A DNA stretch of 64,000 nt from assembly GCA_019510435.1 (NCBI GenBank), contig JAEKKJ010000016.1, forward strand, positions 124,001 to 188,000, read 5' to 3'. Under the pieces are notes generated by a model, which was not told the DNA's origin, searched no databases, and worked only from the letters and a program-made list of their open reading frames with translations. The stretch comes from Caulobacterales bacterium (lineage in GTDB: Bacteria > Pseudomonadota > Alphaproteobacteria > Caulobacterales > Caulobacteraceae). The first letter of the stretch is position 1. Every line of letters starts with the position of its first letter. Positions 5,350-17,369 of this stretch are shown here, one piece after another. The position numbers and the translations under genes are program-made.

Positions 5350-6291
5350 CTAAGCCACCGCCCGCGGCAGCTTGAAGGTCACGGTCTCGCGGGCGGCGTC
5401 GGACTCCTCGACGGTCACCTCGAAGCGCTCAGCGAGGCGGGCGATCACGCCCTGCACCAGCACCTCCGGCGCAGAAGCCCCCGCCGTGACGCCGATCGTA
5501 CGCACGCCCGCCACCCAGGCCCAGTCCAGCCCGTCGGCGTCGTCGATCAGGTAGGCCCGCGCTCCGGACCTGCGGCCCACCTCCGCGAGGCGCACGGAGT
5601 TCGAGGAATTGGCGCTGCCCAGCACCAGCAGCACCTCGGCCCGCGCCGCCGCGGCCTTCACCGCGTCCTGGCGATTGGTGGTGGCGTAGCAGATGTCTTC
5701 CTTGTGCGGCGCGGCGATGGCCGGGAACCGCTGGCGCAGGGCGGCCACGATCTCGGCCGTGTCGTCGACCGACAGGGTCGTCTGGGTGACGAAGGCGACG
5801 TTGGCGGGGTCGCGCGGGGCGAAGGCGCGCGCGTCCTCCACCGTCTCGATCAGCGCCACCGCGCCGTCCGGCAGCTGGCCCATGGTGCCCACCACCTCGG
5901 GGTGGCCGGCGTGGCCGATGAGCACGATCTCCCGGCCGGCCTCGAAATGGCGTTGGGCCTCCACGTGCACCTTGGAGACCAGCGGACAGGTGGCGTCCAG
6001 GTAGAGCATCTGGCGTGACTTGGCCTCCGCGGGGACCGACTTCGGCACCCCGTGGGCGGAGAACACCACCGGCCGGTCGGCGGGCGCCTCGGCCAGCTCC
6101 TCCACGAACACCGCCCCCAGCGCCTTCAGCCGGTCGACGACGTGGCGGTTGTGGACGATCTCGTGGCGCACATAGACGGGGGCGCCATACTTGGCGATCG
6201 CCCGCTCGACGATCTGGATCGCCCGGTCCACCCCGGCGCAGAAGCCGCGCGGGCTGGCGAGCAGGACGGTGAGCGGCGGCCGGGACGACAT
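5350..6291 (-). CDS. ispH: 4-hydroxy-3-methylbut-2-enyl diphosphate reductase
   Basis: [20 protein letters not shown]...[12 protein letters not shown]...[11 protein letters not shown]...IGHAGHPEV...[14 protein letters not shown]. Confidence 0.97.
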
Positions 6292-6384
6292 TCGCCGGAA
6301 CCTAAGCGCCCGCAGCCAGAAGGGAACCCGCAAAGCAGCAATAATCTGTGCAGATGCCGCGAAGCGGCGGCGTCCCACTGGAGA

Positions 6385-6445
6385 ACCACGGACCATCACG
6401 GACGGACAGGCCGCGAGTCCGTGCTGGTCCGTGATGGTCCGTGGT
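6385..6445. repeat. Intergenic inverted repeat with 19-bp perfect arms
   Basis: ACCACGGACCATCACGGAC (6385-6403) and GTCCGTGATGGTCCGTGGT (6427-6445) are exact reverse complements. Confidence 0.85.
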
Positions 6446-6617
6446 GAAAACAGGAAGCCTCCGCCGGCGCGAAGGCTCGTGGGGACCTCCGTCACGGTTC
6501 AGCGGCCACGCGCCGCGTGGTGCAATCGTCGGGCCGCGTTGCGGCCGCATTCCTCAGGCTGTACTAGGCACAAGACCCCGCGACGTCCTCGCGGCCCTTC
6601 CAGTTGGACGCCTTTCC

Positions 6618-7307
6618 ATGCGCCGCCAGATGCTCCTCGCCGCCGCCCTGTTGGCGGCCGTGACCTGCGTTCCCACCTTCTCGCACGCCCAGATCGGCGG
6701 CGGGGGCGGCGGCGCGGACCAGCAGAAGAAGGACGAGGAAGACGCCGCCAAGCGCAAGAAGCGCCAGGAGGAGTGGGGCGACAACCAGGCGCCGCTGCCG
6801 CAGCTGCGCAACGCCGGCCCCTGCCCCTTCGTGAAGACGCTGTACGACGCGGCCCGCTATGTGGAGTTCAAGGACAACCGGGAAGCCTCGGCCAATGTCG
6901 GCTACACCGGCGAGATCCAGGGCGTCTCCGCCGGCTGCCAGTACAAGGACGACCAGCCGATCCAGGTGACCATGCAGGTCCTGTTCGAGCTGGGCCGCGG
7001 GCCGACGTCGGCTGGCCGCGAGAAGACCTTCCGCTACTGGATCGCCGTGACCGACCGCAACAAGATGGTGCTGGCCAAGGAGAGCTTCGACCTGCCGGTG
7101 AAGTTCCCGGAGGGCAAGGACCGGGTCTACCTGACCGAGAACATCGACAAGATCGTGATCCCCCGCGCATCGGTGGCCACGTCGGGCTCGAACTTCGAGG
7201 TGCTTGTGGGCTTCGAGGTGACGCCGCAGATGGCGGAGTTCAACCGCGCCGGTAAGCGCTTCCGCCTCAACGTCGGCCAGACCGCGAGCAACGCGCCGAA
7301 CCCATGA
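6618..7307 (+). CDS. Conserved secreted/periplasmic hypothetical protein
   Basis: Signal peptide [25 protein letters not shown]; stop overlaps argS start (ATGA). Confidence 0.75.
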
Positions 7308-9085
7308 GCGATCTGAAACGGGCGCTGGGCGAGGCGGTCGAAGCCGCCTTCGCCGCCGTCGGCGCGCCTCCCGAACTGGGCCGGGTGACGCCCTCGGACC
7401 GGCCTGACCTGGCCGATTTCCAGTCCAACGGCGCCCTGGCCGCCGCCAAGCGCCTGGGCAAGAACCCCCGCGAGATCGCCGCGGCCGTGGTCGAAGCCTT
7501 GGCCGGCGACCCGCGGCTGAGCGCGGTCGAGATCGCCGGGCCGGGGTTCATCAACCTAAAGGTGGCGGATGCGACGCTGGCGAGCCGCGCCGACGAGGTG
7601 GCCGACGATCCGCGGGCGGGCGCCGAGACGGTGGCCCAGCCGCGGCGGGTCATCGTCGACTACGGCGGCCCCAACGTGGCCAAGCCCATGCACGTGGGCC
7701 ACCTGCGCGCCTCGATCATCGGCGAGAGCGTCAAACGCATCTATCGCTTCCGCGGGGACACCGTGGCCGGCGACGCCCACTTCGGCGACTGGGGCTACCA
7801 GATGGGCCTCCTGATCGGCGCGGTCATGGACGAGGACGCCGAGATCGCCGCCGAGGTGGAGGCGCTGAACGCCGCCGGCGGCGTGGACGATCCGATCCCG
7901 GCGGCCTTCGCCAAGGTCACGCTGGCCGACCTCGACCGGCTCTATCCGCTGGCCGCCGCCAAGGGCAAGGAAGACCCCGCCTACCGCGACCGCGCCCGCA
8001 AGCTCACGGCCGACCTGCAGGGCCACAGGGCCGGCTGCTACATCCTGTGGCGGCAGTTCCGGGCGGTGACCCAGGTGGCGCTGGAGCGCGACTTCCACGC
8101 CCTGGGCGTCGACTTCGACTGGTGGAAGGGCGAAAGCGACGTCGACCAGCTGATCGAGCCGATGGTGGCCGAACTCGACGCCAAGGGCCTCCTGGTCGAC
8201 GACCAGGGCGCGCGAATCATCCGGGTGGCGCGCGAGGGCGACAAGCGCGAGTTGCCGCCGCTGCTGGTGGTCTCGTCCGAAGGCTCGGCGATGTACGGCA
8301 CCACCGACCTGGCCACGATCCTGGACCGCAAGCAGGTCTTCGATCCCGACCTTGTCATCTACTGCGTGGACCAGCGCCAGGCGGACCACTTCGAGATCGT
8401 CTTCCGCGCCGCCTACCTCGCCGGCTATGCCCACGAGGGCCAGCTGGAGCACATCGGCTTCGGCACCATGAACGGGACCGACGGCAAGCCCTTCAAGACC
8501 CGCGAAGGCGGGGTCCTGAAGCTGAACGACCTCATCGAGATGGCCCGGGCCAAGGCCCGCGAGCGGCTGCACGAGGCCGGGCTCGGCGAGGACCTGCCCG
8601 AGGCGGAGTTCGAGGACATCGCCGGCAAGGTCGCGGTCGCGGCGCTGAAGTTCGCCGATCTCTCCAACTTCCGCGGCACCTCCTACGTCTTCGATCTGGA
8701 CCGGTTCACCAGCTTCGAGGGCCGCACCGGCCCCTACCTGCTGTACCAGGCCGTCCGGGTGAAGAGCCTGCTGCGCCGGGCCGAGGGCGAAGGCGCGACG
8801 GCCGGCCCCGTGATCGTGGCGGAGAGCGCCGAGCGCGACCTGGTGCTGACCCTGGACGCCTTCGATGCGGCGCTGACCGAGGCCTACGACAAGAAGGCCC
8901 CCAACGCCCTGGCCGAGCACGCCTATCGCCTGAGCCAGGCCTTCTCCAAGTTCTACGCCGCCTGCCCGATCCTGCAGGCCGAGCCGGCGATCCGGGCCTC
9001 GCGCCTCACCCTGGCCGGCGCGACCCTGCGGCAGCTGGAGCTGGCGCTCGACCTGCTGGGCATCAGCGTCCCCGAGCGCATGTAA
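7304..9085 (+). CDS. argS: Arginyl-tRNA synthetase
   Basis: [25 protein letters not shown]...[22 protein letters not shown]...C-terminal SISVPERM. Confidence 0.97.
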
Positions 9086-15802: not shown

Positions 15803-15928
15803 GCGGTCGGGCGACGCGGCAATAGTCCGCGCGCCGATCGATAGGTCCAAGAGCGCCGCAATCCGAGAGAGCTGAACTGAGAAGGCCGCTGTCAGGCCCG
15901 GTGTTGGTGCGGCCTATGTGTTCTTGTT

Positions 15929-16255
15929 TTGTTCTTTACAAATGAGCTGACCTCCCATATTCTCGCCTTGGTGGTGATCGGGACGCGCTCCCGGCAGGGA
16001 CGAGGGGCTGCACGGGTGTGGGATCCACGACACGAACTCCTGGAGGCCAAAGGGCAGGGTTACGCATCACTCTTCGGCACGCGCTTCGGCCACTTGGTCA
16101 TGGGGTCGATTGAAGGACAGGCAGACCGACAACGTAATGTCGCTCGGGGTCGACCGATCGAGTGGCATGTCGCCGAGCGACCAGCCAGCGACGCGATACG
16201 GGAAAACATCTGGAAGTCCGTCCCTGATGTCCTGTTTGATCCGCCGAGGTGGTGA
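15929..16255 (+). CDS. Tox-REase-5-like polymorphic toxin C-terminal nuclease domain, N-terminus/delivery region missing
   Basis: VWDPRHELLEAKGQGYASLFGTRFGHLVMGSIEGQADRQRNVARGRPIEWHVAERPASDAIRENIW resembles the Tox-REase-5 ExK core and (G)QArRQ...G.PxEWHvAE region; in-frame TGA at 15878; TTG is the only apparent start. Confidence 0.6.
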   Translation: MFFTNELTSHILALVVIGTRSRQGRGAARVWDPRHELLEAKGQGYASLFGTRFGHLVMGSIEGQADRQRNVARGRPIEWHVAERPASDAIRENIWKSVPDVLFDPPRW

Positions 16256-17019
16256 TGGCGCCAGCAGATCTGGATGTCGAATTCCACCTGAGCCTCGGTC
16301 GGAAGATCGCGGTCGGCTGGAATGGCAATCGCCCGCAATCCGCCGAGGACATCGCCGGTCGCCTCAAGGCGATGGTGGAATGGCTGACCGCGATGCGAGT
16401 GCTTAAGACGTCGGTCTGGCCCCTCTTCGACCGCGTGCCACGGGCGAGCGACCCCACGGTCGCTTTGCTCCCCACCGCCGATCTGGCGCAGCTTATTGAC
16501 CGCAAGGCGAGGTTCGATCCTCCACCGTTGCCTCGGCCCGTCGGCCCTACGGGCTATCATTTCGTGGTGGCCTCGAACGAGCTTCCCCGCGAGCCCACGC
16601 GCGCCAGCATCTGGTTGAAGGTGGGCATGAGCCGTCCCAGCGATGAGAATACCGTCTTGCTCAACCTTCACGGTCGCCATCCGCTCTGGGCCGATGAGGC
16701 CGGCTGCCGCGAAGCATTGCGGTTCCTGATCGCGCTTTGGGGTGCGGAATGGGGCTTGATTGGGAGCGCTCTGCGGTCGGAGTTCAGCGGAGGCGACAGG
16801 CCCCCGCCCAGCTACGCCTTGGGGGATTTCGTCTGGATGAATTGGGCAAGACCCGGGGTGAGGCGCCAATGGAAGGCCGGGTTCTGGACCCCGCCTGCGC
16901 CCGCGGACGCCGTCGAGCCGTGGCTCAATGGACAGCTGTCGGTCTGGTCGGACGGGGCTGTTTCGAACGTTCCGGGGGCCGGCGACGTGCAACGCCAGCC
17001 GCCGAGATCCGACGGCTAG
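16255..17019 (+). CDS. Imm52-like immunity protein
   Basis: VGWNGNRPQSAEDIAGRLKAMVEWLTAM...LPTADLAQLIDRKARFD...GYHFVVASNE...NTVLLNLHGRHPLWADEAGCREALRFLIALWGAEWGLI; TGATG overlap with the toxin-like ORF. A GTG at 16249 is an alternative start. Confidence 0.62.
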   Translation: MAPADLDVEFHLSLGRKIAVGWNGNRPQSAEDIAGRLKAMVEWLTAMRVLKTSVWPLFDRVPRASDPTVALLPTADLAQLIDRKARFDPPPLPRPVGPTGYHFVVASNELPREPTRASIWLKVGMSRPSDENTVLLNLHGRHPLWADEAGCREALRFLIALWGAEWGLIGSALRSEFSGGDRPPPSYALGDFVWMNWARPGVRRQWKAGFWTPPAPADAVEPWLNGQLSVWSDGAVSNVPGAGDVQRQPPRSDG

Positions 17020-17127
17020 CACGATCACGTTTGTCGGAATCGACAAAGTCTGACTCGTGCTCGTCGATCTAAAATGCCGAGCCCGTTCTTCCCGTTTTGA
17101 TGTTCGAGCAGACGGGACAGGCTCTAG
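17016..17127 (+). repeat. CTAG-bounded GANTC-containing dispersed repeat, copy 2
   Basis: CTAGCACGATCACGTTTGTCGGAATCGACAAAGTCTGACTCGTGCTCGTCGA...CCCGTTCTTCCCGTTTTGATG...GACGGGACAGGCTCTAG. Confidence 0.92.
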
Positions 17128-17182
17128 CGGATCGCAGATCTAAGCTTGCCAGCGCGCCGCGGGCCGTTGCGGGAGTCGAAGA

Positions 17183-17285
17183 GGCCCACGGACACCCGCC
17201 TCGCCGGTCGGCGCCGGATCCCAGCCTCCCCAGGCGGAGGGATCCTTGCGGTTTCGATCGGAGAGGGGACGGGGGTCCGTGGGCC
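17183..17285. repeat. Intergenic long-range inverted repeat with nested inverted repeat
   Basis: GGCCCACGGACACCC (17183-17197) vs GGGGGTCCGTGGGCC (17271-17285), 14/15 complementary; internal GGATCCC...GGGATCC. Confidence 0.6.
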
Positions 17286-17369
17286 GGTCGACGGCGCCGG
17301 CGTTCCCCAACGCCTGCGCCTGACCATTGACGCCGCCCGCGAGCCCGGGGGCGGCGCCGATCTTGAGGA

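Follow-up and report, generated by a model that had tools for sequence, protein, structure and literature searches.

An intact Imm52-type immunity gene behind a predicted SOS promoter and a truncated toxin gene: probable remains of a bacteriocin-like locus in a Caulobacterales genome

Next to the gcv genes of a Caulobacterales genome, within a window of 64,000 nucleotides (the whole stretch of DNA that was analysed), a short open reading frame (ORF) resembling the tip of a polymorphic nuclease toxin is followed by a gene for a putative immunity protein. Re-reading of the window reproduced the layout given in a preliminary description of this DNA, namely the ORF at 15929-16255 with its sequence, the overlap of its stop with the ATG at 16255 as TGATG, an in-frame TGA upstream, a preceding gene for an unrelated small membrane protein and a lower G+C content at the start region. 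We propose that the cassette belongs, with high probability, to an SOS-controlled, bacteriocin-like type of toxin-immunity locus and is an allele in which the toxin has been inactivated, an "immune non-producer". Its features are as follows (window positions):

15803 to 17369, no strand assigned: cassette-bearing segment between the membrane-protein gene and the atpF-like gene; 19 relatives compared lack a related immunity gene here
15920 to 15934, plus strand: LexA (SOS) box, GTTCttgttttGTTC, which fits the Caulobacter consensus GTTCN7GTTC (PMC12700426)
15935 to 15963, plus strand: promoter predicted from sequence (-35, 17-nt spacer, -10)
15971 to 16255, plus strand: 3' remnant of a Tox-REase-5-like toxin gene, from alignments to intact relatives and the box-to-EAK distance
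16255 to 17019, plus strand: intact, divergent Imm52-type immunity gene encoding 254 aa, from hhalign, Foldseek and GC content by codon position

The ORF, an open frame of 108 codons, had been assigned to the Tox-REase-5 family. Its sole Pfam match is Tox-REase-5 (PF15648, profile positions 34-94) at 15.3 bits against a gathering cut-off of 25; neither it nor its partner matched anything in NCBIfam, and the partner had no match in Pfam, including none to PF15579. Comparison with these two models, which had been suggested as a check, thus left the toxin below cut-off and the partner without a hit, and homology was instead supported by relatives and profiles. The partner protein was searched against 199 related genomes (E up to 0.001), which returned nine other Phenylobacterium loci, the weakest two of them marginal. 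Five Phenylobacterium genomes have a gene of the partner family immediately after one for a full-length toxin of 318-368 aa. Zhang et al. 2012 (PMC3482391) describe a Tox-REase-5 signature of Y, FDG, EAK, Y, Q and W and name Imm52 as the partner; in all eight aligned full-length toxins FDG, EAK, Y, Q and W are invariant, and intact relatives score 22.8 and 24.3 bits against PF15648, just under the gathering score.

Only the last ~90 residues of these toxins can be aligned with the window ORF, and this alignment bears out the family assignment better than the sub-cut-off Pfam score does. EAK, GY, Q and W are kept, while FDG, the first signature Y and all protein N-terminal to these are lacking, leaving the Tox-REase-5 signature incomplete. 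Of the catalytic residues named earlier, the E-A-K stands, but the upstream D belongs to VWDPRH and does not correspond to the signature Asp. LexA box and EAK lie 123 nt apart in the window versus 851-1025 nt in intact relatives, so about 730-900 bp are missing from the window toxin gene; judged from this comparison, the deletion took the N-terminal domain together with that portion of the predicted active site which contains FDG. Because FDG is absent and the domain truncated, the remnant is very probably inactive as a nuclease. The toxin had been called "headless", which is right in that there is no delivery domain, but it is not an autonomous tip, since its own N-terminal part was deleted. 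A 15-nt direct repeat lies near the deletion (15964 and 16242); it may be due to chance and nothing is built on it.

Apart from the sequence at 15920-15934, neither strand of the window contains a GTTC-N7-GTTC. About 1.2 such matches are expected by chance per 64 kb over both strands, so the argument for a LexA box rests on position and conservation. Of 48 related loci, 36 have a forward GTTC-N7-GTTC no more than 350 nt upstream and 1 has it in reverse orientation, and in relatives the box mostly runs straight into TTGAC. The recA and lexA genes of the same genome have GTTC-N7-GTTC upstream in reverse orientation. The promoter predicted next to the window box comprises a -35 element TTTACA (15935-15940), a 17-nt spacer and a -10 element TATTCT (15958-15963), with a transcription start at ~15970. 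As the LexA box abuts an intact-looking promoter there, the AT-rich start region is a predicted SOS promoter, and the overlap of GTTC-N7-GTTC with a predicted promoter is the sequence pattern of a LexA regulon member. Position 15929 does not hold as a gene start, since its TTG falls within the LexA box, upstream of the predicted transcription start.

Comparison of the full-length toxins with 300 Caulobacteraceae genomes revealed many loci that match the N-terminal part only. A 47-residue profile of this part (consensus DPAxLxGDALxxWYLRSPxEIExERQ) matches 34 Phenylobacterium genomes and, weakly, one genome of another genus, and a sample of 387 Alphaproteobacteria adds only marginal matches. Behind this N-terminal domain at least six C-terminal groups were found: Tox-REase-5-like, HNH, GHH-motif, HH-motif, weakly Tox-REase-9-like and Cys-rich. 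The downstream proteins form matching families in five of them (Tox-REase-5-like, GHH, HH, HNH and REase-9-like), and in the Cys-rich group partners are mixed or missing, with a DUF6968 partner in only some members. The relatives thus have the make-up of polymorphic toxins, with a common N-terminal domain, varied C-termini and matching immunity genes. The N-terminal domain itself gave no match above chance in Pfam, NCBIfam or PHROG, no recognised trafficking domain and no match in PDB sequences; searches of solved-structure sequences with the N-terminal, toxin and immunity profiles returned nothing useful. The structure model of a full-length toxin is poor (mean pLDDT 47), only N-terminal helices 12-18 and 22-43 being moderately confident. 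A phage origin of the domain was considered and rejected, as it had no match in phage records and contractile sheath genes are rare in these genomes. From their sequences, these loci seem to form a hitherto undescribed Phenylobacterium family of antibacterial toxins under the control of DNA damage; within a partial coverage of the literature, nothing relevant was found on Phenylobacterium polymorphic toxins or on alphaproteobacterial LexA-controlled bacteriocins.

In the window's own genome one member is intact; its tip is of another, GHH type, and it has a LexA box and a partner (G000:C1, locus L056). A full-length toxin with the same tip as the window remnant was found in this genome by neither PF15648 nor the toxin profile. 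At L056 (G000:C1:177000-189000) the SOS-box GHH-motif toxin occupies 6022-7812 and is followed by a 204-aa immunity-like gene. Other arrangements were seen in the family. One locus (L068, G018:C65:1-8853) carries two different toxins with the N-terminal domain and an orphan Imm52-like gene within a few kb, resembling a small toxin island. At L061, L081, L084, L063 and L077 a DUF6968 protein accompanies the toxin-like protein of the Cys-rich group, and from sequence DUF6968 may be an immunity family. The Tox-REase-9-like group is paired with a downstream family at L078, L086, L091 and L083, the member at L091 matching DUF4304. In a small-genome Phenylobacterium clade (L030, L034, L035, L036) the same toxin as in the Tox-REase-5-like group stands with an unrelated downstream gene of ~100 aa.

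VipB (PF05943) was found in 0 of the 34 genomes with the N-terminal domain, with a positive control in E. coli, and phage-type contractile sheath genes are absent from 31 of the 34, so the T6SS is not the delivery route. The known Tox-REase-5/Imm52 pair (PMC3482391) has the same signature FDG-EAK-Y-Q-W as the intact relatives and an Imm52-type partner directly downstream, but it occurs in T2SS, T5SS, T6SS and PrsW contexts, whereas here the N-terminal domain is short and unrelated, SOS control is predicted and a T6SS sheath gene is lacking, and in the window copy FDG has been lost.

The loci were also compared with a second kind of system. SOS-induced nuclease colicins and pyocins are encoded by LexA-controlled operons in which a nuclease toxin gene precedes the immunity gene, and the toxin is modular with an exchangeable C-terminus. 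The Phenylobacterium loci resemble them in the order of toxin and immunity gene under predicted LexA control and in a modular toxin with an exchangeable C-terminus; unlike them, they have no receptor-binding or translocation domain of a known type and no identified lysis gene, and their N-terminal domain is without sequence relatives in the libraries searched. In intact loci, LexA would repress one promoter that drives the 318-368 aa toxin, consisting of the 47-residue helical N-terminal domain, a variable linker and the Tox-REase-5 nuclease domain, together with the Imm52 partner directly downstream. In the window, a deletion of about 0.7-0.9 kb removed the N-terminal domain and FDG and left the LexA box, promoter and immunity gene; such a cell would no longer make this toxin but would still induce immunity when its DNA is damaged. 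The damage could come from an incoming nuclease of like kind, which would trigger the SOS response and thereby induce the antidote in the non-producer. By this reading the bacteriocin-like toxin would be delivered to other cells and act on them; the immunity protein would protect, and its retention would have been selected. A wider proposal is that these are Phenylobacterium's own SOS-induced, T6SS-independent bacteriocins, that the 47-residue domain governs export or entry and that retained LexA-controlled immunity is a damage-triggered shield; we offer it tentatively, as somewhat short of an even chance.

The main competing explanation is that the intact relatives are self-killing or anti-phage devices that act inside the producer, with the immunity protein setting the threshold, and not bacteriocins. 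In its favour, PADLOC has toxin and immunity models under PDC-M17, a pair listed as a candidate for phage defence; an intact relative matches PDC-M17A (E 3.3e-15) and the window immunity protein matches PDC-M17B (E 0.0043), the toxin models being 425-591 positions long and matching only in the C-terminal part. Caulobacter also has a cell-death nuclease, BapE, which is likewise SOS-controlled (PMC12700426), and no delivery system was identified for the Phenylobacterium toxins. However, one conserved N-terminal domain heading at least six C-terminal groups that are unrelated to each other is how polymorphic toxins destined for other cells are laid out, the existence of immune non-producers is understandable if the toxins are bacteriocins, and BapE itself looks unrelated. 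We therefore regard action inside the producer as unlikely, while giving it more weight than any other alternative. Homology to BapE had been considered and was rejected: in the nearest genome, the gene beside the promoter published for bapE codes for a protein of ~107 aa that is unrelated.

The partner had been described as Imm52-like. This is supported by the intact relatives, the PADLOC models and both profile-profile and fold comparison. A relative of the window protein scores 11.6 bits against PF15579, and in other Caulobacteraceae genera the cut-off of this model is passed by proteins encoded beside Tox-REase-5-like toxins. The Phenylobacterium immunity set compared by hhalign with bona fide Imm52 (four proteins with PF15579 scores of 38-51 bits) gave a probability of 94.7 and an E of 5.7e-8. 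The predicted structure of the window protein (pLDDT 73.7, pTM 0.76) has 9oz0, 7dym, 9owg and 6jdp among its top Foldseek hits, which include TsiT/PA3908 and another P. aeruginosa Imm52 entry (E 7.8e-5 to 1.1e-3, TM ~0.53); a fold search against viral models gave nothing significant. The predicted fold thus matches TsiT of the TseT-TsiT pair (PA3907-PA3908, P. aeruginosa, PDB 7dym), but that is a T6SS effector pair, in contrast to the VipB-free Phenylobacterium genomes, and sequence identity is ~15%. From profile comparison and predicted fold, the window partner is an intact, divergent Imm52. Its C-terminus (16945-17019) runs ~23 residues past the stop of most relatives, which comes after a conserved WP or WS.

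Divergence raises the alternative that neither gene functions any longer and that both are debris about to be lost. The nearest relatives of the immunity protein are ~31-35% identical, no close orthologue of its gene was found among the sampled genomes and the stop codon of the gene lies elsewhere than in relatives; given these values, the C-terminal overrun and the lack of a Pfam or NCBIfam match, the protein could also be drifting. Against this stand 254 stop-free codons, conserved family residues, the confident predicted fold and a coding-type GC pattern by codon position (0.66/0.54/0.79). The same outcome has also arisen at several independent loci, with at least six further cases of a broken toxin and intact immunity. 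At L011 and L014 different 5' deletions leave the LexA box and immunity gene, at L036 the toxin is broken by stops and frameshifts with the partner kept, and at L063, L069 and L077 the toxin frame is cut off by a stop 18-34 codons in, whereas that of the immunity protein aligns stop-free. Sequencing or assembly errors in draft genomes may account for some of the premature stops but do not easily explain the deletions. Debris is improbable, and the suggestion of a decayed toxin kept for immunity, one of several in the preliminary description, is supported by the deleted FDG and N-terminus beside an intact immunity ORF.

Two further readings fare worse. Remnant and immunity gene could form a cassette reservoir from which tips are swapped into a full-length relative by recombination, and a C-terminal part and immunity gene are indeed kept together here as in orphan cassettes of other polymorphic toxins; yet there is no neighbouring full-length toxin, a silent reservoir would not need the promoter that is retained, and a swap would transfer a dead tip because the catalytic domain itself is truncated, all of which makes this reading very improbable. 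Weakest of all, and hardly credible, is an autonomous small nuclease with its antidote, as had been suggested. The open frame of 108 codons and the kept EAK, Y, Q and W would fit it, but the ORF lacks FDG as well as the first Y of the signature, its start codon lies inside the operator before the predicted transcript start, and its third-position GC (0.66) is low for the genome.

Acquisition at the end of the gcv operon had been proposed and agrees with the comparison of this site. The gcvPB and membrane-protein genes are present in 19 relatives, the atpF-like gene being also close in 18 (one locus ends first), and none of the 19 has a related immunity gene at the site; its cassette-free state in relatives supports insertion beside the gcv genes. 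Third-position GC is 0.79 in the immunity gene versus 0.92-0.94 in the gcv genes, a difference that acquired DNA would be expected to show.

The catalogue of bacteriocin-like weapons in Alphaproteobacteria is poor, and we found no paper on this class. A genus-restricted N-terminal domain with nuclease-like tips, a predicted SOS link and no T6SS offers a handle on an unexplained delivery route, and the repeated loss of the toxin with promoter and immunity kept provides a natural series for studying cheater or immune types in bacterial warfare. If the immune non-producer reading is true, nuclease attack itself would raise the SOS response and induce its own antidote in non-producers. In other Caulobacteraceae genera, Tox-REase-5-like/Imm52 pairs occur behind a different head with the motif RVPAGNGRxSGQW (L092-L095). 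LexA boxes lie close to the frame start at these loci, which suggests that SOS control of Tox-REase-5/Imm52 toxins is wider than the Phenylobacterium class.
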